A stretch of DNA of 64,000 bases from the NCBI RefSeq assembly GCF_002931055.1, contig NZ_PSXX01000008.1, positions 62,001 through 126,000 of the forward strand, read 5' to 3'. The notes beneath the pieces were generated by a model. It saw only the letters and a program-made list of their open reading frames with translations. It was not told the origin of the DNA and did no database searches. Both the position numbers and the translations under genes were made by a program. Source of the stretch: Pseudoclavibacter sp. AY1H1 (GTDB lineage: Bacteria > Actinomycetota > Actinomycetes > Actinomycetales > Microbacteriaceae). Shown one piece after another: positions 54,803-63,852 of the stretch; the stretch's first letter is position 1; every line of letters starts with the position of its first letter.

Positions 54803-54896
54803 CGGCCGCGCGGATCAGGCCGCACCGGTCAGGCCGCGGGCGGCCGCGCGGATCAGGCCGCACCGGTCAGGCCGCGGGCGGCCGCGCGGATCAGGC
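54803..54896. repeat. 38-bp tandem repeat built from the aldo/keto reductase 3' end
   Basis: Two identical 38-bp units (54803-54840 and 54841-54878) are followed by an 18-bp partial unit that contains the stop codon of the aldo/keto reductase gene (reverse strand, 54891-54893). Each full unit therefore carries a copy of the same terminal bases and stop. Confidence 0.9.
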
Positions 54897-55775
54897 CTCG
54901 GGGATGGGCATGCCGTAGGCCTCCAGCGTCAGCGACTCGGGCTCGGGCCCGCGGCGCACGCCCTTGTCGAGGGCGTCGATCTGGGCGACCTCGTCGGGCG
55001 TGAGCTCGAAGCCGAAGATGTCGAAGTTCTCGGCGATGCGGTGCGGCTTGACCGACTTGGGGATCACCGAGCGGCCCTCCTGCACGTGCCAGCGCAGCAT
55101 GACCTGCGCAGGGCTCTTGCCGTGGGCGTCCGCGATGGCTCGGATCGTCGCGTCTTCCAGCGTGCTTCCGCCGTCACCTTCCCGGTAGAACGTGATTCCG
55201 CCGATGGGTGACCAGGCCTGGTCGAGGATGCCGTGGCGCGCATCCGCTTCCTGCACGTCCTTCTGCTGGAAGTAGGGGTGCAGCTCGACCTGGTTGAGGG
55301 CCGGAACGATGTCGGTCGCGTCGAGCAGCCGGTCGAGGTGGTCTGGCATGAAGTTGCTCACGCCGATGGCGCGCACCTTGCCGTCGGCGGAGAGCCGTTC
55401 GAGGGCACGGTAGGCGCCGATCGTCTTCTCCCAGTCTGTGGGGAGCGGCTGGTGGAGGATGAGCAGGTCCAGCTGCTCGAGGCCGAGCTTGCGGGCCGAC
55501 TTGTCGAAGGCGTGGAGGGTCTCGTCGAAGCCGTAGTCGCTGATCCAGACCTTGGTCTCGACGAAGATCTCGTCGCGGGGCACTCCGGATGCGGCGATCG
55601 CCTGGCCGACTTCCCGCTCGTTGCCGTAGGCGGCGGCGGTGTCGATGTGGCGGTAGCCGACGCGCAGGGCTTCGGCGACGGCGGCTGCGGTCTCCTCGGG
55701 GGCGGACTGGTAGACGCCGAAGCCGATGCTGGGCAGTTCGACGCCGTTGTTCAGGGTGAGGTTCGCGGTGCTCAT
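54891..55775 (-). CDS. Aldo/keto reductase
   Basis: A 294-residue AKR with the complete catalytic tetrad: Asp45 and Tyr50 (DTAAAYGNE), Lys75 (ETKVWI) and His108 (LILHQPLP). The late VIPKSVKPHRIAENFDIFGFEL block binds NADPH. It fits the AKR5/2,5-diketo-D-gluconate reductase-like group, broad carbonyl reductases. The ATG lies 7 nt after TAGCGT, so translation is probably leaderless. A 25-bp perfect palindrome overlaps its -35 region. It is divergent from the PTS operon. Confidence 0.93.
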   Translation of the reverse strand: MSTANLTLNNGVELPSIGFGVYQSAPEETAAAVAEALRVGYRHIDTAAAYGNEREVGQAIAASGVPRDEIFVETKVWISDYGFDETLHAFDKSARKLGLEQLDLLILHQPLPTDWEKTIGAYRALERLSADGKVRAIGVSNFMPDHLDRLLDATDIVPALNQVELHPYFQQKDVQEADARHGILDQAWSPIGGITFYREGDGGSTLEDATIRAIADAHGKSPAQVMLRWHVQEGRSVIPKSVKPHRIAENFDIFGFELTPDEVAQIDALDKGVRRGPEPESLTLEAYGMPIPEA

Positions 55776-55870: not shown

Positions 55871-55944
55871 TTGCGCACGGGGTCCCGCATGCCTACACTT
55901 TCGGCAGGTGCACAAACGATCATATCTATTTGCAACTTCGTGCA
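55871..55944 (+). promoter_or_regulatory. PTS operon promoter with two SorC-type operator candidates
   Basis: A -35 TTGCGC (55871-55876) and -10 TACACT (55894-55899) are 17 bp apart. Just downstream of the expected start point lie TGCACAAACGATCA (55909-55922) and TGCAACTTCGTGCA (55931-55944), 22 bp apart; the second is the reverse of the TGCACRAAGTTGCA site in the promoter at 63.8 kb. The local SorC regulator is the obvious binder. Confidence 0.6.
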
Positions 55945-55967
55945 CACCCCGACAAAGGAGTCAGAAC

Positions 55968-56060
55968 ATGCGGTTTACGTCGCCGCTCGCCGCCCCCGCG
56001 GCCAGCACAGTCGAGCACAGCTCGACGACCACGTCGGGAGGGCAGCCGGCATGGAAGTAA
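55968..56060 (+). CDS. 30-aa leader ORF overlapping the PTS IIC gene
   Basis: AAAGGAG sits 8 nt before an ATG that opens a 30-codon frame (starting MRFTSPLAAPAAS) ending with TAA at 56058-56060. This stop lies 7 nt inside the IIC gene, so ribosomes finishing the leader are placed at the IIC start. It is Ser/Thr/Ala-rich with no membrane segment. It may be a leader peptide for translational coupling. Confidence 0.5.
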   Translation: MRFTSPLAAPAASTVEHSSTTTSGGQPAWK

Positions 56061-56653
56061 TCACCTGGATCGCCGAGAACTTCATCGGCCTCTTCAACGC
56101 CTCCGCCGAGAGCCTCATGGGCCTCATCACGGGCATCCTCCCCCTGCTTCTCGTGCTGCTCACGGCAATGTACGCCGTCACCACGTGGATCGGCGAGGAG
56201 CGCGTCACGCGCGCCGTCCGCTGGGCGGGCAAGTACGCGATCACGCGCTACACGGTCATGCCGATCATCGCGGTCATCATGCTGACGAACCCCATGGCCT
56301 ACACATTCGGCCGCTTCCTCCCAGAGCGCTACAAGCCGGCCTTCTACGACTCCGCAGTGTCGTTCGTGCACCCGGTCACGGCGTTCCTGCCTCACGCCAA
56401 CGCGGGTGAGCTCTTCGTCTGGACGGGCATCTCCGCCGGTGTCCTCTCCATCGCGCCGGACAAGTACGCGACCCTCGCGGCCCTGTACTTCATGGTCGGC
56501 ATCGTCGTCATCTTCATCCGCGGCATAACGACGCAGTGGATCACGAAGATCCTCATCAAGCGCGGCGGACACGAGGCGACGTTCGCTCGTTTCGACGAGA
56601 TGTATGCAGAGGGCCACCTCCAGGGCTCCAAGAGCGAAGGTGGTGTCCTGTGA
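56051..56653 (+). CDS. srlA: PTS glucitol/sorbitol-type transporter subunit IIC
   Basis: This 200-residue membrane protein matches the EIIC-Gut family: ITWIAENFIGLFNASAESLMGLITGILPLLLVLL, then RWAGKYAITRYTVMPIIAVIMLTNPMAYTFGRFLPE and SFVHPVTAFLPHANAGELFVWTGI. It forms part of the channel through which a polyol is imported and phosphorylated. The ATG at 56051 was chosen to match the family N-terminus; GGGAGGG is upstream. It overlaps the leader ORF by 10 nt and the IIBC gene by 4 nt. The true substrate may be a polyol other than glucitol. Confidence 0.92.
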   Translation: MEVITWIAENFIGLFNASAESLMGLITGILPLLLVLLTAMYAVTTWIGEERVTRAVRWAGKYAITRYTVMPIIAVIMLTNPMAYTFGRFLPERYKPAFYDSAVSFVHPVTAFLPHANAGELFVWTGISAGVLSIAPDKYATLAALYFMVGIVVIFIRGITTQWITKILIKRGGHEATFARFDEMYAEGHLQGSKSEGGVL

Positions 56654-57726
56654 GCACAGACGCTGAGAACACGAACGCCAACTCGGCCGACGGCGGCGCG
56701 AGCACCGCGGACTACAAGGGCGTCAAGGTCAACCGCGGTCGCGGCGGCTGGGGCGACGGGCTGACGCTCGTCCCCAACGCCGAGAAGAACATCGTCCTGT
56801 CGGTCACGGGTGGTGGCATCCACCCGGTCGCCCAGAAGATCGCAGAGCTCACGGGCGCTGAGGCCGTCGACGGCTTCAAGAACAACGTGCCGGACGCGAA
56901 CGTGCTCTGCGCGGTCATCAACTGCGGTGGCACGGCGCGCATCGGCGTGTACCCGAAGAAGCGCATCCCGACGGTGGATGTGTACCCCGGCGAACCGGGC
57001 GGCCCGCTCGCCCAGTTCATCACCGAGGACATCTTCGTCTCCGACGTCGCCCCTCGTGACGTGGTCGCGCTCGACGCGGCGGCAACGGCAGCAGCTGGTG
57101 CCCCGGCCGCAGCCGAGGCGCCCAGCCTGAGCCCGGAAGAGGTCGCCGCGAAGGCCAAGGCGGATGCACGCGCCAGGGTCGCAGCGCAGGGAAGCGGATT
57201 CACGGGCTTCGTCGTGAAGTTCGGAAACGCCATCGGCTACTTCATCAACACGCTGCTCTCCTCGGGCCGCCAGGCGATCAAGCTGACCCTCAACACGATC
57301 CTGCCGTTCATGGCGTACGTCTCGCTCCTCATCGGAGTCGTCACGTACACGGGCGCTTCGGACTTCATCGCCAACGCGGTGTCGCCGCTGGCCTCGAACC
57401 CGATCGGCCTGATCCTGCTCGGCGTCATCACGGGTCTCCCCTTCCTGTCGCCGATCCTCGGCCCAGGTGCCGCGATCGCCCAGGTCGTCGGCGTGCTCAT
57501 GGGAACGCAGATCGCGGCAGGCGCGCTGCCGGTGCAGTACGCACTGCCGACGCTCTTCGCGGTGAACGGCCAGGTCGGCTGTGACTTCATCCCCGTCGGT
57601 CTCTCCCTCGGTGAGGCTGAGCCGGAGACGGTCGCGGTCGGTGTCCCAGCCGTGCTGTTCTCCAGGCAGATCACGTCGCCCCTCGCGGTTGTGCTCGCCT
57701 ACTTCGCCTCCTTCCTCCTCATCTAG
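56650..57726 (+). CDS. srlE: PTS glucitol/sorbitol-type transporter subunit IIBC
   Basis: A 358-residue fusion. The cytosolic IIB part contains LVPNAEKNIVLSVTGGGIHPVAQKIAELTG and INCGGTARIGVYPKKRIPT, with Cys92 the likely phosphorylated residue. After an Ala/Glu-rich linker (about 140-180) the membrane part has TLNTILPFMAYVSLLIGV, SNPIGLILLGVITGLPFLSPILGPGAAIAQVVG and FAVNGQVGCDFIPVGLSLGEAEPET, all Gut-type signatures. The GTG overlaps the IIC stop (GTGA). It passes phosphate from IIA to the incoming polyol. Confidence 0.93.
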   Translation: MSTDAENTNANSADGGASTADYKGVKVNRGRGGWGDGLTLVPNAEKNIVLSVTGGGIHPVAQKIAELTGAEAVDGFKNNVPDANVLCAVINCGGTARIGVYPKKRIPTVDVYPGEPGGPLAQFITEDIFVSDVAPRDVVALDAAATAAAGAPAAAEAPSLSPEEVAAKAKADARARVAAQGSGFTGFVVKFGNAIGYFINTLLSSGRQAIKLTLNTILPFMAYVSLLIGVVTYTGASDFIANAVSPLASNPIGLILLGVITGLPFLSPILGPGAAIAQVVGVLMGTQIAAGALPVQYALPTLFAVNGQVGCDFIPVGLSLGEAEPETVAVGVPAVLFSRQITSPLAVVLAYFASFLLI

Positions 57727-57812
57727 TGGACGCCGGGCGGGCCGCACCGGCCCGCCCGCGCATCCACCCCTGAACTTCGCTTCAACCTCTCGCCTCAAGA
57801 AAGGACCACCAC

Positions 57813-58187
57813 GTGTCCACGACCATCTGGCAGTCAGAAATCGCACGCATCGGACCCGACGCGAACGACATGTTCGAGGGCGGCGTCTACATCCTCTTCG
57901 GCGAACCCGTTCCGGATGCGCTCGCCGAGGTCAGCCTCGTGCACAAGGGCCACTCGGGTGAGTTCGTCCCCGTGCAGGCCGGCGACGAGTTCGTGATCGG
58001 CGACGAGGCCGTCACGGTCACCGCGGTCGGGGATCTCGCCAACCCGAACCTGCAGGAACTGGGTCACGTGGTGCTCTACCTGAACGCGGAGGACACCGCG
58101 CTCCTCCCGGGCGCCATCCAGGCATCCGGCACCCTCACGACTCCCGCCGAGGGCGCACTCATCAGCGTGCGCCGGAACGAGGTGTAG
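57813..58187 (+). CDS. srlB: PTS glucitol/sorbitol-type transporter subunit IIA
   Basis: A 124-residue cytosolic IIA-Gut protein: FEGGVYILFGEPVPDALAEVSLVHKGHSGE, where His44 (or His47) is the phosphorylation site, then the VQAGDEFVIGDEAVTVTAVGDLANPNLQELGHVVLYLN core. It takes phosphate from HPr. AAAGGA lies before the GTG start. It lies 86 nt after the IIBC gene and 3 nt before gutM. Confidence 0.92.
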   Translation: MSTTIWQSEIARIGPDANDMFEGGVYILFGEPVPDALAEVSLVHKGHSGEFVPVQAGDEFVIGDEAVTVTAVGDLANPNLQELGHVVLYLNAEDTALLPGAIQASGTLTTPAEGALISVRRNEV

Positions 58188-58190
58188 ATC

Positions 58191-58676
58191 ATGGACTGGA
58201 GATTCCCCGCCGTTCTGGTCCTCGCGCTCGTCCTGAGCATGTTCATGACGGTCGTGCAGATGCGCGCCTACATGAGCCAGGTCAACGAGATCGCGAAGGC
58301 GAACGCCGGCAAGAACCTCAACCTCGTCAGCGGTCGAGGCAAGGGCGCCTTCCGCGGCGCGATCGCCGTGCTGCTCGTCGACCCGACCACGCTCGAGGTC
58401 GTCGAGGCGCGCGCGCTCCTCGGGTTCAGCGTCTTCGGACGCCTGAAGCCCGCACCCGACCTCGAGGGCCCGCTCACGACCGTCTACGACCGCGCGGAGG
58501 CCCGCCACAAGCACCTCGGAACCGCCGTCCGCCAGGCGATCAGCATGCTGCCGCACACGGTGCGCGCCCAGGTCACGCTGCCGCCGGTCAAGGGCAAGAC
58601 GAAGCGCGCGCAGCCCAACGCTGTCAAGGGCGCGGCCCCGAAGCAGTTCGCCGGCCTCTCCCGCGTCAGCAACTAG
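58191..58676 (+). CDS. GutM family membrane-anchored regulator
   Basis: This 161-residue protein has one N-terminal membrane helix and the GutM pattern: QMRAYMSQVNEIAKAN, GRGKGAFRGAIAVLLVDPTTLEVVEARALLGFSVFGRLKPAP. The C-terminal 40 residues are Lys/Pro/Ala-rich. GutM was named as an activator of the E. coli glucitol operon, but its mechanism is unclear. It lies between IIA and the oxidoreductase. The PTS gene set with GutM confirms the Gut family even though the dehydrogenase differs. Confidence 0.8.
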   Translation: MDWRFPAVLVLALVLSMFMTVVQMRAYMSQVNEIAKANAGKNLNLVSGRGKGAFRGAIAVLLVDPTTLEVVEARALLGFSVFGRLKPAPDLEGPLTTVYDRAEARHKHLGTAVRQAISMLPHTVRAQVTLPPVKGKTKRAQPNAVKGAAPKQFAGLSRVSN

Positions 58677-58720
58677 CCCCTGATCAGCACCCCACCCCAC
58701 GAACTCAGCAAGGAACGCAC

Positions 58721-60022
58721 ATGAACTACACCCAGCGCCTCATCCAGCGTGAAGCAGAACTCGGCCGACCCATCCGCGTCGGCGTCGTGGGGGCAGGTCA
58801 GATGGGCTCAGGCCTCATCGCCCAGATCGAGCGAGCCAAGGGCATGGAGGTCGCCGTCGTCGCCGACATCGCCGTCGAGCGCGGCGTGGATGCGTACACT
58901 CGCGCCGGCCGCAGCGACGTCCAGGTCGAGACCGACCTCGCCGTGGTCGCCGAGCACATCGAGGCTCGCCGCCCGGTGGTCATCAACGACGGCCTCCTCA
59001 TCCCGAAGCTGCCCGTCGACGTCGTGCTGGAGGTCTCGGGTGTCACCGAGATCGCAGCGCAGGTCGCCTACGCGTCGCTCCTCGGAAAGAAGGACGTCGC
59101 TCTCATGACCGTCGAGGCCGACGTGACGGTGGGGCTCTTCCTGGCCAGCATCGCCAACGCAGGACAGCAGATCTACACGATCTGCCGCGGTGACGAGCCC
59201 GTCGAGGCGCTCAAGCTCGTCGAGCACGCCACCGACCTCGGCCTCACCGTCGTCGCGGCCGGCAAGGGCAAGAACAACCCGAACCGCCCGACGGACGTGC
59301 CGGAGGACGTCATGGAGGAGGCGAAGGCCAAGAACATGAACCCGCGCATCCTGTGCGAGTTCACCGACGGAACGAAGACGCAGATCGAGATGGCCTCCCT
59401 CTCGAACGCGACCGGCTTCCCCGTCAACAAGCCGGGCATGCACGGCCCGGCCGCCGACATCGCGACGCTCGCGACCACGCTCATCCCCGTCGAGGACGGC
59501 GGAGTCCTCACCTCGACCCCGGCCGTCGAGTACACGGTCGAGGGCGATGTCGCGCCAGGCGTGTTCGTCGTCGTGAAGTCGGAAGACGATGTCGTCACGC
59601 ACGAGCTCGACTACCTGAAGCTCGGCAAGGGGCCGTACTACGCCCTCTACCGCCCGTACCACCTCGCCTCGGTCGAGGCGATCCTCTCGATCAGCGAGGC
59701 CGTGCTCGAGCGTCGCGCCGACTTCCAGACCACCACGTGGCGCACCGAGGTCGCCTCGAAGGCGAAGTTCGACCTCGCCGCCGGCACGAAGCTCGAGGGC
59801 ATGGGCGGGCACCACGTGCACGGCTGGGCCGTGGACGCCGACGAGGCACGCGCCGACAACTCGATCCCGATCGGGCTCATCTCCGGCGGCATCCTGAAGC
59901 GCGACATCAAGGCGGGCGAGATCGTCTCCTACGACGACGTCGAGCTCGACGAGACGCGTCCGCTCATCGCGATGCGCCGCCTGCAGGACTCGCTGGTCGC
60001 GGCTGGCGTCATCGGCGCCTGA
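58721..60022 (+). CDS. DRL-like NAD(P)-dependent oxidoreductase (Rossmann + SAF domain)
   Basis: A 433-residue protein: Rossmann start RVGVVGAGQMGSGLIAQI, then VMLEVSGVTEIA-type strand, MTVEADVTVG, CRGDEPVEALKLVEHATDLGL, AGKGKNNP, EMASLSNATGFPVNKPGMHGP, and KLGKGPYYALYRPYHLASVE, with a C-terminal SAF-like domain (IPIGLISGGILKRDIKAGEIV). These blocks match, from memory, the homoserine-dehydrogenase-like family that includes Brucella DRL, an alternative DXP reductoisomerase. Here, in a PTS operon, it probably oxidises or rearranges the imported polyol phosphate. AAGGAA precedes the ATG. A terminator follows. Confidence 0.75.
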   Translation: MNYTQRLIQREAELGRPIRVGVVGAGQMGSGLIAQIERAKGMEVAVVADIAVERGVDAYTRAGRSDVQVETDLAVVAEHIEARRPVVINDGLLIPKLPVDVVLEVSGVTEIAAQVAYASLLGKKDVALMTVEADVTVGLFLASIANAGQQIYTICRGDEPVEALKLVEHATDLGLTVVAAGKGKNNPNRPTDVPEDVMEEAKAKNMNPRILCEFTDGTKTQIEMASLSNATGFPVNKPGMHGPAADIATLATTLIPVEDGGVLTSTPAVEYTVEGDVAPGVFVVVKSEDDVVTHELDYLKLGKGPYYALYRPYHLASVEAILSISEAVLERRADFQTTTWRTEVASKAKFDLAAGTKLEGMGGHHVHGWAVDADEARADNSIPIGLISGGILKRDIKAGEIVSYDDVELDETRPLIAMRRLQDSLVAAGVIGA

Positions 60023-60042
60023 CCCCCGTCCGACACCCGTCG

Positions 60043-60065
60043 GGCGCCCGGCTGGACCGGGCGCC
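60043..60065 (+). terminator. Hairpin terminator after the PTS-oxidoreductase operon
   Basis: GGCGCCCGG and CCGGGCGCC form a perfect 9-bp stem (10 with a G-U pair) around CTGGA, 20 nt after the oxidoreductase stop. It would separate the PTS operon from the regulator gene. Confidence 0.7.
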
Positions 60066-60289
60066 TGATCGTCGGTCGATAGGATCATGTGAACCGGATC
60101 ACCGATGCCGCGCCCAGCGTGCGGCGTCGGGGCGGCTCCCGAACGGCGCGTGAGCGCGGTGAGGGAGCCGTCGCCATCTGGGAAAGACGTCCCGCACCGC
60201 AGGGCCACGCAGGAGTGAGCAGCGCTGCGCCTCCTGCCCAGCACAGCCTGCGCGTCGCTCTGCACCACCCACAGGAAGGAAGGCTCGGG

Positions 60290-61243
60290 ATGCCAGCACC
60301 CCGCAACGCCGAGACCCTCGTCCGAGCAGCGCGCCTCTACTACCTCGACGGCCTCTCCCAGAGCGACGTCGCGACAGCACTCGGCGTCTCGCGGGCGAGC
60401 GTCTCACGCATCCTGTCGGCGGCACGCGAGCAGGGGATCGTCGAGATCCGCATCCACGACCCTCACGTCGTCGGTCGTGTCGACGAGCTCGAACGGCAGA
60501 TCACGGATGCGTTCGGTGTCGGTGCCGCCGTCGTCGTCTCGGCGCTGCCGGGCAGGAACCCCCTCGACATCGTGGCCGGAGCGGCCGCCGACTACTTCGC
60601 GGAGCGTGTGCCCTCGGTCGGTTCGGTCGGCCTGAGCTGGGGCAAGTCGATCGACGCGTTCGTCGAGCAGATCCACGTCGAGTCCACGGGGCGCGCGCTG
60701 ACGCTGTGCCCGCTCGTCGGCGGCATGCCGTTCGACTCGGGGCCGGCCGGGAACACGGCCCTGGAGCGTCTCTCGCAGAAGTCGGGGGCGATGGCGTTCC
60801 GGTTCGAGTCGCCCGCCGTCGTCGAGTCGCCCCAGACCTGGGCTGCGCTTACCGGGGAATCGTCGATCTCCATGGCCATCAAGCGGGCGACGGATGTGCA
60901 GCTCGCGTTCGTGGGCATCGGTTCGTATGGGCTCCACGCGTCGAGGCACATCGTCTCCGCGATGCGGCTCAGCGATGCCGAACGCGCCGAGCTGGACGCG
61001 CAGCAGCCCGTCGGCGATATCTGCGGTCGCTTCTTCGACGCCCAGGGGCGCGCCCTTGGCGCACCGGTCTCCGAGCGGGTCATCGGCATCACCCTCGGCC
61101 AGCTGGCGAAGATCCCGGAAGTGGTGGGCTTCGCCGCTGGCGCCGAGAAGGCCCCTGGGGTCGCCGGTGCGCTCCGCACGGGGGCGCTCGACGGCGTGAT
61201 CCTCGACGAGGACCTCGCGCGCGCTCTCGTGGAGCTCGTGTAG
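60290..61243 (+). CDS. SorC/DeoR-type sugar-binding transcriptional regulator
   Basis: This 317-residue regulator has an N-terminal helix-turn-helix (RAARLYYLDGLSQSDVATALGVSRASVSRILSAARE) and a long sugar-phosphate-binding domain of the SorC/NagB-like type: SVGLSWGKSIDAFV, LCPLVGGMPFD, VGIGSYG and GDICGRFFDAQG. AGGAAGGAAGG before the ATG at 60290 sets the start; an upstream frame from 60089 has no family similarity. TAGGAT at 60080-60085 is a possible own -10 box, giving a leader of about 200 nt. It most likely binds the TGCA-N6-TGCA sites of both neighbouring operons and senses a phosphorylated intermediate. Confidence 0.9.
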   Translation: MPAPRNAETLVRAARLYYLDGLSQSDVATALGVSRASVSRILSAAREQGIVEIRIHDPHVVGRVDELERQITDAFGVGAAVVVSALPGRNPLDIVAGAAADYFAERVPSVGSVGLSWGKSIDAFVEQIHVESTGRALTLCPLVGGMPFDSGPAGNTALERLSQKSGAMAFRFESPAVVESPQTWAALTGESSISMAIKRATDVQLAFVGIGSYGLHASRHIVSAMRLSDAERAELDAQQPVGDICGRFFDAQGRALGAPVSERVIGITLGQLAKIPEVVGFAAGAEKAPGVAGALRTGALDGVILDEDLARALVELV

Positions 61244-61582
61244 GGCGCTGCCCGGGCCCGAAGAGTCAGGTTCCGCGGCGGATCTCCATGCCTCTGGCTG
61301 ACTCTTGCCGCGCTCAAGGGTTCGCCGGGAGGCGCGGGCTGTGCGGAGCGCAGCTGCCAGGGCAGGGGACTCTTGGATCGACACGCGACGATGCCTCCGC
61401 ATCCGCAGCCACGTCCCAAACCGCGGCCACGTCCAAACCGTCGCCACGGCTCAGAGACGCAGAACGCCGCCGGTCGATCGTGCCGCTGACGGGGAGTCAG
61501 GGTGCGATCGAACGGCGGCGTCGGTGCGCCGACGTCGTTGGCGGCGTCAGCGGAGGCGGATGCTCGGAGGGGGAGCGCGCGC
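61244..61582. other. 339-nt gap between convergent operons
   Basis: No supported gene was found. The left part holds an AAGAGTCAG/CTGACTCTT hairpin (61261-61306). Fragments of the same words recur further right (GACTCTTG near 61368, GAGTCAGG near 61495), suggesting decayed repeats. Confidence 0.6.
61261..61306. terminator. Hairpin between the convergent regulator and YjbQ genes
   Basis: AAGAGTCAG and CTGACTCTT are perfect 9-bp complements spaced by 28 nt, 18 nt after the regulator stop. It may be a bidirectional terminator. Confidence 0.45.
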
Positions 61583-62113
61583 CTACTCGCCCATGACGAC
61601 GACCTGGCACTTGCGCGAACGGGCGCGCGTGCGGTCGAAGTCGACGAAGTAGATGTACCCGGTGACGCCGACGCCGAGCTTGCCGTCGATGACCGCGAAC
61701 ACCTCGCTCGAGCCGATGATCGTCGACTTGATGTGCGCCTCCGCGTTCAGCAGCGCCGTCTTGTCGCCGCCGGGCAGGTACACCTCGGCGTCCGGCCACG
61801 ACTCGACGTCGGCGTAGTGCTCCGGGCCCGGGTAGCGGTACTCGCCCTCGGGCGGCACGGCCGTCTGGTTCGGGGCGACGCGGTTCAGCACGTCGTCGAG
61901 GTCGGCCTGCAGGAACTCGGTGCCGTCCTCGAGGCGGTCGTGCACGAACTCCTCGAAGAACACGGCGCAGGTCGTGTGAGGAGAGATGACGGTGACCGTG
62001 CCCGCCGTGATGCCGCTCGTCGCGATCGCCTCCTTCACCTCCGCCGTGACGTCGATGTAGCTGGGCGTGCCGCCGTGTGACTGCAGCTGGAGGGTGGTCT
62101 GGTAGACGGTCAT
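61583..62113 (-). CDS. YjbQ family protein (UPF0047)
   Basis: A 176-residue protein with the YjbQ signature: SPHTTCAVFFEEF (the usual H-T-T-x-A strand with conserved His) and the DLDDVLNRVAP helix, and a final VFAVIDGKLGVGVTGYIYFVDFD beta pair. E. coli YjbQ has weak thiamine-phosphate synthase activity and the family is otherwise of unknown function. GAAGGAA sets the ATG. It is the last gene of the TPI-aldolase-YjbQ operon. At 176 residues it is longer than the usual roughly 140, with an extra loop around YRYPGPEHYADVESWPDAE. Confidence 0.88.
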   Translation of the reverse strand: MTVYQTTLQLQSHGGTPSYIDVTAEVKEAIATSGITAGTVTVISPHTTCAVFFEEFVHDRLEDGTEFLQADLDDVLNRVAPNQTAVPPEGEYRYPGPEHYADVESWPDAEVYLPGGDKTALLNAEAHIKSTIIGSSEVFAVIDGKLGVGVTGYIYFVDFDRTRARSRKCQVVVMGE

Positions 62114-62187
62114 CGGTGTTCCTTCGTGGTCGTGGATGCGCGTGCTTCGGCGCGCGCGCAGATGTCGGTTGGTGTGGCTGGCTCGGC

Positions 62188-63036
62188 TCAGGCGCCCGGG
62201 CGCAGGGCCTGAATGAAGTCGGCCACGTCGGCCTCGACCTGCGCGGAGACCGCCTTCGCGACCTTCGGGAACAGGATGGTGTTGGGCTGCTCCGCGGCCC
62301 GGAGCGCCGCATCCAGTGCCGCCTTCGCCGCGTACGTGTAGTAGTTGATCTTGCGGACGCCGCGCGTGATGGAACGGTGGTACTCGTCGAGGCTGAGCCC
62401 GGAGCCGCCGTGCATGACGATGGGCACGCCCGTCGCATCCCGCAGCTGCTCGATGAGCTCGTAGTTGAGCTTCGGCTCCTGGTGGTACATGCCGTGCACC
62501 GTGCCGAAGGAGGCAGCGAGCGCGGTCACGCCGGTGCGCTCGACGAACTCCTTCGCCTGCGCTGGCTCCGTGTACAGGGTTTCGTCGGCGATGCCCTGGC
62601 TCGGGTCGCCGTTCTCGTTGCCCGTCATGACGCCGAGCTCGCCTTCGACCCCCACGCCGCGTTCCTTCGCGAGCTTCACGACCTCGGTCGTGCGGGCGAC
62701 GTTCTCCTCGTACGGCAGCGTCGAGCCGTCGATCATGACGGAGTTGAAGCCGATGTCGAGGCCGCGAGCGATGTACTCGATGTCCTCGCCGTGGTCGACG
62801 TGCAGCACGAACGGCGCTTCGCTGCGCGTCGCGAGGGCGAGCATCGCCGGCCCGATGTCGTCGATCGACAGGGTGCTCTCGTGCACCTGCGCGTGCTGCA
62901 GGATGACGGGAACGCCGGCCTTCTCGGCAGCGGAGATCGTGCCGAGCAGCCCCTCGAAGTAGGGGGTGTTGACCGCCGCGATGGCGATGTTGTTCTTCTG
63001 TGCGTAGCGGAGCGCTTCGTCGAGTCCGATGAGCAT
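62188..63036 (-). CDS. Class II ketose-bisphosphate-type aldolase
   Basis: This 282-residue zinc aldolase has the FBA-II/GatY fold: LHVDHGED with catalytic Asp81 and zinc His82, GSTLPYEENV, GVEGELGVMTG, AASFGTVHGMY (second zinc His) and IVMHGGSGL (third). The segment PVILQHAQVHE replaces the usual serine-containing loop, so substrate use may be unusual. It should split a ketose phosphate, giving a three-carbon unit for the TPI homologue next door. GAGAG precedes the ATG at 63036. The middle gene of the operon. Confidence 0.9.
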   Translation of the reverse strand: MLIGLDEALRYAQKNNIAIAAVNTPYFEGLLGTISAAEKAGVPVILQHAQVHESTLSIDDIGPAMLALATRSEAPFVLHVDHGEDIEYIARGLDIGFNSVMIDGSTLPYEENVARTTEVVKLAKERGVGVEGELGVMTGNENGDPSQGIADETLYTEPAQAKEFVERTGVTALAASFGTVHGMYHQEPKLNYELIEQLRDATGVPIVMHGGSGLSLDEYHRSITRGVRKINYYTYAAKAALDAALRAAEQPNTILFPKVAKAVSAQVEADVADFIQALRPGA

Positions 63037-63075
63037 GTGTTGGTCTTCTCTCTGGTGGCCCTGTGGGGGAGCGGG

Positions 63076-63792
63076 TCAGTTGGCGGGGGCGGCGCTCGCC
63101 TGCGCGTCGCGGTGGTCGGCGAGCGCCTGGAACATCTCGGTGAGGATCTCGCGCCAGTCGGGGTGCTTGATGATGCCGCTCGTGCCGCCTGAGCAGTCGG
63201 CGCCCTGCTGCAGGACGCGCGTGATGTCGGCGCCGCGGCTCACGCCGGCTGCCTGCACGACGAGGATCGCCGGGTCGACGTTCTTCACGATCTGGGTCGT
63301 GCGCTCGATGTAGTCGCCCGCGTCCATCTGCCCCGTGCCGATGTTGGCGGTCGGCTCGCAGATCATGCCGGAGGGGTCGAGGTCGGCAACCGCGCGGCAC
63401 TGCAGGTCCGAGTCGGCGCAGACGATGGTTGCAAGACCGACCTCTTCGCAACGGCGCATCGTCGCGTCGAGGTCGGCCAAGGTGAGGGGGTGCTCGGCGT
63501 GGTTGAGCACGACGGCCTTGACCCCGGCTTCGGCGAGGCCCTCGGCGAGGATGTGCCCCATGCCGCGGCCAGGCACGATCGGGTCGACGTGCTGGGCGGT
63601 GACGCAGAGGTTCGTCGTCTCGGCGACGACCGACCGGAGGTCGATGTGCTGCGCGGTGAACACGACGTCGATGTCGAACGCTCCAGCGAGCTCGTCGGTG
63701 AGGTGTGCCAGCTTCATGAGCTCGCTGCCCGTCAGGTACGCCTTCGGGTTGACGATCAGAAACGGGCTCCGTACAGGGATGGGGACAGCCAT
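63076..63792 (-). CDS. Triose-phosphate isomerase homologue (short, archaeal-like)
   Basis: This 238-residue TIM has the active-site residues of triose-phosphate isomerase: Asn15 and Lys17 (VNPKAYL), His98 (VVLNHAEHPL) and Glu146 (ICEPTANIGTG), followed by AGVSRGADI and the phosphate loop GGTSGIIK. The short length and NHAE/CEPTANIGTG wording are like archaeal TPIs and the TPI-like tetrulose-phosphate isomerases of erythritol and threitol pathways, not the housekeeping enzyme. AGGAG precedes the ATG. First gene of its operon, under paired TGCA-type operators. Confidence 0.85.
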   Translation of the reverse strand: MAVPIPVRSPFLIVNPKAYLTGSELMKLAHLTDELAGAFDIDVVFTAQHIDLRSVVAETTNLCVTAQHVDPIVPGRGMGHILAEGLAEAGVKAVVLNHAEHPLTLADLDATMRRCEEVGLATIVCADSDLQCRAVADLDPSGMICEPTANIGTGQMDAGDYIERTTQIVKNVDPAILVVQAAGVSRGADITRVLQQGADCSGGTSGIIKHPDWREILTEMFQALADHRDAQASAAPAN

Positions 63793-63816
63793 TGTCAGTT
63801 GCTCCTAGCGGATAAA

Positions 63817-63852
63817 TGCACAAAGTTGCACTAAAGAATGTACGAACGTGCA
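63817..63852 (-). promoter_or_regulatory. Paired SorC-type operators upstream of the TPI-aldolase operon
   Basis: TGCACAAAGTTGCA (63817-63830) and TGTACGAACGTGCA (63839-63852) lie 22 bp apart, the same distance as the pair in the PTS promoter. They overlap the probable promoter of the reverse-strand operon. Confidence 0.6.

Follow-up and report, generated by a model that had tools for sequence, protein, structure and literature searches.

The window analysed here, a stretch of 64,000 nucleotides from Pseudoclavibacter sp. AY1H1 (contig NZ_PSXX01000008.1, positions 62,001 to 126,000), carries two convergent operons that probably form one regulon, under control of a SorC-type protein, for growth on a 2-C-methyltetritol; the most likely substrate is 2-C-methyl-D-erythritol (ME). 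One operon encodes a Gut-type phosphotransferase system (PTS) and a homologue of the oxidoreductase DRL (also designated DXR-II), the other a triosephosphate isomerase (TPI) homologue, a class II aldolase and YjbQ (together, the trio). In the proposed pathway, the PTS would import ME and phosphorylate it to methylerythritol phosphate (MEP); DRL, working in the oxidative direction and presumably with NAD, would convert MEP to 1-deoxy-D-xylulose 5-phosphate (DXP), which would then be split between C2 and C3 into a C2 and a triose-phosphate unit. These inferred metabolites, MEP and DXP, are those of DXS and DXR in the MEP pathway of isoprenoid synthesis; here the chemistry would be reversed as catabolism and carried out by different proteins. 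The initial annotation of this DNA had suggested that a possibly branched polyol phosphate is converted to a ketose phosphate; the gene context is consistent with this suggestion, and the E1-E2 and IspD genes next to DRL in relatives sharpen it to methylerythritol.

The convergent operons and their shared operator

The locus has the following features (window coordinates; Pfam accessions with E-values where given).

55931..55944, plus strand: operator TGCAACTTCGTGCA of the PTS-DRL operon, 106 bp upstream of the srlA start
56051..56653, plus strand: srlA, Gut-type PTS EIIC (PF03608, 6.1e-68)
56650..57726, plus strand: srlE, Gut-type PTS EIIBC (PF03612, 1.4e-61; PF07663, 7.5e-42)
57813..58187, plus strand: srlB, Gut-type PTS EIIA (PF03829, 6.2e-26)
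58191..58676, plus strand: gutM homologue (PF06923, 9.9e-10, 38.9 bits with a cut-off of 25; no NCBIfam match)
58721..60022, plus strand: DRL/DXR-II homologue, proposed NAD-dependent MEP to DXP oxidoisomerase (PF21135, DRL_cat, 1.2e-59)
60290..61243, plus strand: SorC-type regulator, sugar-binding domain (PF04198, 2.5e-49)
61583..62113, minus strand: yjbQ (UPF0047), proposed sugar-phosphate isomerase/epimerase (PF01894, 1.5e-19 on a slightly shorter frame)
62188..63036, minus strand: class II (FBA-type) aldolase (PF01116, 1.5e-78; closest solved structure, YdjI aldolase 6ofu, 3.1e-47)
63076..63792, minus strand: TPI homologue of the archaeal type, proposed ketose-phosphate isomerase (PF00121; PRK04302 above cut-off; 1hg3, 1.8e-37)
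63817..63830, minus strand: operator TGCAACTTTGTGCA of the tpi-fba-yjbQ operon, 24 bp upstream of the tpi start

According to the reading frames and family scans, srlA-srlE-srlB-gutM-DRL-sorC on the plus strand converges with tpi-fba-yjbQ on the minus strand; all genes named in the initial annotation are present in the order given there, with open frames. This order is kept in all four other Pseudoclavibacter loci (L002-L005; L and G numbers are our designations of loci and genomes), the nearest relatives, whose DRLs are 98-99% identical to that of the window. A general-type PTS Enzyme I is encoded in the window genome, which together with EIIC, EIIBC and EIIA completes the Gut-type PTS.

The SrlA, SrlE, SrlB and GutM homologues are shared with the sorbitol (gut/srl) PTS operon, whereas DRL stands in place of the SrlD-type short-chain dehydrogenase/reductase (SDR) and the regulator is of the SorC type. 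In fact, no SrlD-like sorbitol-6-phosphate dehydrogenase of the SDR type was found among the 10 window proteins scanned. NCBIfam labels SrlA and SrlE, with scores over cut-off, as sorbitol PTS proteins, as ordinary catabolism of sorbitol or another linear hexitol with the DRL homologue as hexitol-phosphate dehydrogenase would have it. This explanation is nevertheless very improbable, for the enzyme belongs to the DRL_cat family and keeps the DXR-II substrate-site residues, and close DRLs are linked to E1-E2 and IspD (see below). An identity of the window DRL as sorbitol-6-phosphate dehydrogenase is thus disfavoured by both family and gene context.

A 14-bp operator, TGCAACTTYGTGCA, is common to the srlA and tpi promoters, and the same sites are present in L002-L005. 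Because its only two perfect copies in the 4.2-Mb genome precede srlA and tpi (another two sites have one mismatch), the two operons look like one regulon, in agreement with the initial annotation. The reversed control sequence had no match in the genome, and 100 shuffles of the window gave 0 matches. Since the pattern was derived from these same two sites, the evidence lies in its genome-wide rarity and not in its presence. In the window and L002-L005, the looser operator TGCA-N6-TGCA is confined to the srlA and tpi promoters. L006-L008 have it at the srlA promoter and between tpi and E1alpha, L009 at srlA, and L011 at srlA and one other site; it was not found in L010 and L012-L017. Both promoter regions thus carry it in eight of the nine loci with trio and DRL (the window and L002-L008, not L011).

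Two further elements surround the srlA promoter. A gene for a DkgA-like aldo/keto reductase (54891-55775) is the divergent neighbour of srlA, also in L002-L005; an aldehyde product could be its substrate for reduction. A leader frame of 30 codons (55968-56060) with a good ribosome-binding site lies 3' of the operator and overlaps the srlA start, and translational coupling to srlA is possible.

The DRL homologue and isoprenoid synthesis

The window DRL matches, besides PF21135, the C-terminal SAF domain (22.7 bits, cut-off 21); matches to NAD-binding families are weak and under cut-off. Its phmmer match to Brucella DRL (3upl) has an E-value of 1.1e-89. PMC3847144 names K191, K193, T229 and R320 (Brucella numbering) as residues of the substrate site and dimer interface of DXR-II. 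In the alignment of the window DRL with Brucella DRL, from which our numbering is taken, K191, K193 and T229 (substrate site) as well as R320 (interface) are all kept, so that the window protein resembles DXR-II of Brucella and others in its PF21135 and SAF domains, substrate lysines, T229 and R320. K191, K193 and R320 are invariant in 41/41 actinobacterial, 5/5 Chloroflexi-clade and 13/13 Bacillota/alphaproteobacterial rows; low-identity rows keep them in 12, 16 and 11 of 29 cases, respectively. Among the 41 actinobacterial rows, T229 is conserved in 32 and replaced by A in 9. The step from polyol phosphate to ketose phosphate, which the initial annotation had assigned to a DRL-like enzyme instead of a sorbitol-6-phosphate dehydrogenase, is thus supported by PF21135, the Brucella match and the substrate-site residues, and the window DRL probably catalyses the same MEP/DXP chemistry as DXR-II.

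In Rossmann folds, an acidic residue at the end of the second strand (beta-2) goes with NAD, and arginines there go with NADP. This position is D or E in all 51 context-linked rows (47 D, 4 E), including the window, and in 19 of 38 unlinked rows, three of which are gapped; in Brucella DRL it is A, and two arginines (RR) come next. From these residues and the Rossmann-fold rules we predict that the linked DRLs, that of the window among them, are NAD-dependent and Brucella DRL uses NADP. The acidic residue would also support catabolic (oxidative) work of the window DRL, unlike Brucella DXR-II. In a quick midpoint-rooted tree of 83 rows, which had no named DLO row and left the deep forks unresolved, the window DRL falls within a supported actinobacterial clade (the NGR234 row was assumed to be the DXR-II entry of PMC3847144; short, stop-containing and near-identical rows were dropped).

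The DRL of the window is encoded in a PTS catabolic operon, and its host genome (98% complete) gave no TIGR00243 Dxr match, no full-length IspD and no IspG (DXS, IspE, IspF and IspH were not sought), while mevalonate diphosphate decarboxylase is present (303.8 bits). Therefore, this DRL should not serve isoprenoid synthesis, and the role of a biosynthetic DXR was rejected for it. The pathway type was determined for 23 of 43 genomes (the window genome and those of 22 of the 42 relatives' loci) and for 13 of the 41 genomes with DRL in a class-wide sample. Dxr is present in 14 of the 23 and in 5 of the 13. Eight of the nine genomes without Dxr among the 23 have the mevalonate enzyme, and the ninth (G014, a 1.3-Mb genome from a metagenome) has IspG. 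Altogether, DRL is dispensable for isoprenoids in 27 of the 36 typed genomes, with nine exceptions.

The family f33, small-genome actinobacteria with DRL near IspD (L099, L100, L101, L105-L109), differs from the window genome in this respect. Its eight genomes (96-100% complete) all have IspG, all lack a Dxr match and all have IspD near DRL, which is the only DXR candidate found in them (mevalonate genes were not sought there). Apparently, this type of DRL has been recruited there for making isoprenoids. As the f33 DRLs nest within the same actinobacterial clade as the window DRL, they would also tie this clade to MEP and DXP as metabolites.

Of 28 MEP-pathway genomes, 22 have IspD close to DRL, and of eight mevalonate-type genomes none does; the latter count proves nothing, since these eight are without any full IspD. 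Two full IspD copies are present in 6 of 23 genomes. In some relatives, e.g., L007 (G004), the cluster IspD is the sole full copy and must therefore be a housekeeping gene there. In MEP-pathway relatives, imported MEP could also feed isoprenoid synthesis through IspD.

Neighbours of DRL in relatives and the proposed fate of DXP

The initial annotation had suggested looking at the neighbourhoods of DRL-like proteins beside srlE. Indeed, srlA and srlE adjoin DRL in 31 of 42 loci of relatives. Within ~10 kb of DRL, E1alpha and E1beta are encoded in 21 of the 42 loci, IspD in 15 and the trio in 8 (L008, L022, L023 and L036 are cut by contig ends, L008 and L023 affecting the E1 count; weaker E1 matches in L039 and L040 were not counted). 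NCBIfam supports the identities of the representatives, with several scores, e.g., for E1alpha and IspD, below curated cut-offs. Among 47 plasmid records with DRL, at least 32 have E1alpha at most 1.5 kb away. The importers next to DRL vary: Gut PTS (L052, L055), an ABC transporter with PfkB kinase (L051), or an MFS transporter with FGGY kinase (L049).

In a class-wide sample of 394 genomes (the surveyed genomes lay outside the Bacillota), 41 had a DRL_cat match at 1e-15 (43 hits), and the contexts of 40 hits were compared, setting aside the hit in the window itself and two weak hits (G121, G368). All 13 DRLs that are 43-49% identical to that of the window have Gut-PTS, E1 and/or IspD within ~10 kb, and none of the 27 distant ones (28-37% identical, several of them on short contigs) has such partners; one of the latter has fsa and tkt 7 kb away. 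L100 and L105, where just srlE and srlB were detected, were counted as without PTS. The difference between close and distant DRLs has a Fisher p of 8e-11, which is merely indicative as related genomes were treated as independent.

The E1alpha, E1beta and E2 families encoded beside DRL match those of acetoin and pyruvate dehydrogenase complexes; the linked E1alpha and E1beta of actinobacteria and Chloroflexi are 50-62% and 57-65% identical, respectively, to the pair of S. meliloti. The relatives' E1-E2 differ from these complexes in being encoded beside DRL, and we propose that they cleave DXP. Since DXP, like acetoin, is an acyloin, CH3-CO-CH(OH)-R, such a thiamine pyrophosphate-dependent E1-E2 would turn it into acetyl-CoA and glyceraldehyde 3-phosphate, effectively reversing the DXS reaction. 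There is a biochemical precedent: purified pyruvate dehydrogenase forms 1-deoxy-D-xylulose, and mutants in aceE (its E1) make DXP in vivo, as stated in PMC3424233, which also refers to studies of how pyruvate and acetoin dehydrogenases form 1-deoxyketoses.

Among the polyols suggested in the initial annotation, ME explains the E1-E2 and IspD neighbours best. Another of them, apiitol (2-C-hydroxymethyl-tetritol), would be imported as apiitol phosphate, and DRL would convert it, through the rearrangement that it performs on MEP, to a pentulose 5-phosphate for the pentose phosphate pathway. As apiitol phosphate corresponds to MEP with an added hydroxy group, enzymes that rearrange MEP could plausibly act on it, and the pairing of DRL and Gut-PTS with fsa and transketolase genes in Ligilactobacillus would suit such a route. 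A pentulose phosphate, however, needs no acetoin-type E1-E2, yet E1-E2 is a very common partner of DRL, and the IspD partners and the f33 genomes point to MEP itself. Apiitol was therefore demoted to an improbable alternative when these neighbours came to light. Still less probable is an import of 1-deoxy-D-xylulose, from which the PTS would form DXP directly, with DRL just making MEP for isoprenoids. Such an import fits the E1-E2 and IspD partners in MEP-pathway genomes, but DRL would be useless in mevalonate-type genomes, the window's included, where it is nevertheless retained together with the PTS.

Two plasmid contexts may be mentioned here. On Ligilactobacillus salivarius plasmids (L050, L056), genes for a fructose-6-phosphate aldolase-like protein and a transketolase come after those for DRL and the Gut PTS, possibly a third downstream route. 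On an Enterococcus raffinosus plasmid (L066, 9017-9694), a gene for a 225-residue protein with no Pfam match precedes the DRL and Gut-PTS genes.

The trio and the weight of the evidence

E1alpha, E1beta and E2 were not found beside DRL in L002-L005, and the loci of Pseudoclavibacter and Acidipropionibacterium in which no E1 genes were found (L002-L005, L011) do have the trio. Trio and E1-E2 occur together in L006 and L007; in L008 the trio is accompanied by the beginning of an E1alpha gene. No close E1alpha was found in the window genome, where the best matches to a linked E1alpha are 31-40% identical; such matches are 30-40% identical in G000, G001, G002, G006 and G007, which have DRL loci without E1. 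It is thus conceivable, though doubtful, that the trio replaces E1-E2 in the window and converts DXP to dihydroxyacetone phosphate (DHAP) and acetaldehyde; this is the weakest step of the pathway. In this variant, YjbQ and the TPI homologue would catalyse two carbonyl shifts, from DXP through a 3-ketose to a 5-deoxy-pentulose 1-phosphate, which the class II aldolase would cleave to DHAP and acetaldehyde. Such a scheme would use each gene once and break the bond of DXP that the E1 route breaks.

The TPI homologue keeps the catalytic Lys, His and Glu and the phosphate-binding loops (alignments were read by eye), and the aldolase keeps the usual catalytic positions in its alignment. The structure model of YjbQ is poor (mean pLDDT 64), and the sequence search returned, above noise, YjbQ structural-genomics entries of unknown function. 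Overexpression of yjbQ relieves an E. coli pdxB mutant by an unresolved route (PMC7954711). On Enterococcus faecium (L142) and Lacticaseibacillus paracasei (L143) plasmids, YjbQ is encoded in Gat-type PTS gene rows with no annotated dehydrogenase, and together with Rpe (ribulose-phosphate epimerase) and HxlB (6-phospho-3-hexuloisomerase) genes. Such contexts suggest that YjbQ acts on sugar phosphates as an isomerase or epimerase. The idea of the initial annotation that YjbQ is a new enzyme step is therefore possible insofar as it recurs with sugar-phosphate isomerases, the role itself being conjectural.

The trio could instead serve another sugar phosphate of the same habitat, e.g., a tetrulose or pentulose phosphate, and merely share the regulator, a serious contender which we rate about as likely as the DXP scheme, though short of an even chance. 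In erythritol and threitol operons (EryH/LerI type), TPI homologues and kinases act on tetrulose phosphates. The window genome has a second TPI homologue in an operon of this look (L058, 6618-10928 on contig C23), with the order YjbQ, FGGY kinase, xylose-isomerase-like TIM barrel, TPI, SDR, a row resembling a tetritol pathway, in which PTS, DRL and class II aldolase were not seen. TPI, YjbQ and an FGGY-kinase match share a stretch in all four other actinobacterial TPI loci (families were checked in L058) and in Shinella, and the combination of TPI, YjbQ, FGGY kinase and SDR in the own genome and Shinella looks like a tetritol operon. Furthermore, the trio accompanies Gat-type PTS or stands alone in Lactobacillales (in E. 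raffinosus, aldolase-TPI-YjbQ is an operon of its own), and the coexistence of trio and E1-E2 in L006 and L007 also favours a separate substrate. On the other hand, the operator shared by both promoter regions in most trio and DRL loci argues for a common function, as do the presence of the trio where E1 is missing from the locus (L002-L005, L011) and the lack of a close E1alpha in the four such genomes tested (G000, G001, G002, G007).

Several observations weigh against ME as the substrate of a common pathway or against parts of it. No srl gene is near DRL in 10 of the 42 loci (L029, L035-L043; several are short contigs), L029 has no partner within 10 kb although its DRL is 75% identical, and L010 has the PTS and neither E1 nor trio. 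For the 47 plasmid records with DRL, the distance to E1alpha is 8.4 kb in one, and 14 do not appear among the E1alpha matches listed (60 of 205). No E1 was seen in the DRL stretches of Listeria (with SorC, GutM and Gut PTS genes), Ligilactobacillus (fsa and tkt instead), Natronococcus and Phyllobacterium (ABC importer). At reported DXR-II positions, the window DRL has A for G121, K for E174 and H for F178. On Lacticaseibacillus and Enterococcus plasmids, aldolase-TPI-YjbQ follows Gat-type PTS genes with neither DRL nearby nor an annotated dehydrogenase, and only one of five E. raffinosus records with this TPI is among the 47 plasmid DRL records. The trio is therefore not specific to this pathway, and the order of steps in the initial annotation, with the aldolase yielding a triose phosphate for the TPI homologue, was not borne out. 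Uptake of ME by a Gut-type system in Salmonella, reportedly described in 2006 (J Bacteriol), would be a precedent for the import step. Finally, sequence alone leaves the exact substrate and its stereochemistry unfixed.

The protein families and the kind of PTS operon are already known, while the pathway and its chemistry appear to be new. In the open-access titles and abstract starts listed, with subscription papers and preprints mostly uncovered, we found no description of a pathway for catabolism or uptake of methylerythritol, and no such pathway described for DXR-II with sorbitol or for ME with growth, glucitol PTS or acetoin dehydrogenase. PMC3847144, whose text contains none of the terms sorbitol, PTS and catabol-, treats DXR-II as an isoprenoid enzyme and asks how it arose in strains already having DXR-I. 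It is tempting, if speculative, to assume a widespread, hitherto undescribed pathway that consumes 2-C-methyltetritols by reversed DXR and DXS chemistry, with the trio variant leading to DHAP and acetaldehyde, in which DXR-II would be primarily catabolic and secondarily recruited for isoprenoids.

If true, methylerythritol, which belongs to plant and bacterial isoprenoid metabolism and has relatives among the atmospheric products of isoprene oxidation, would have a catabolic route. DXP would gain a catabolic fate and YjbQ its first testable task, and selectable strains or enzymes for work on the MEP pathway may become available. Such a route would also explain why bacteria retain DXR-II even when they have a normal DXR or lack the MEP pathway, the question raised in PMC3847144.

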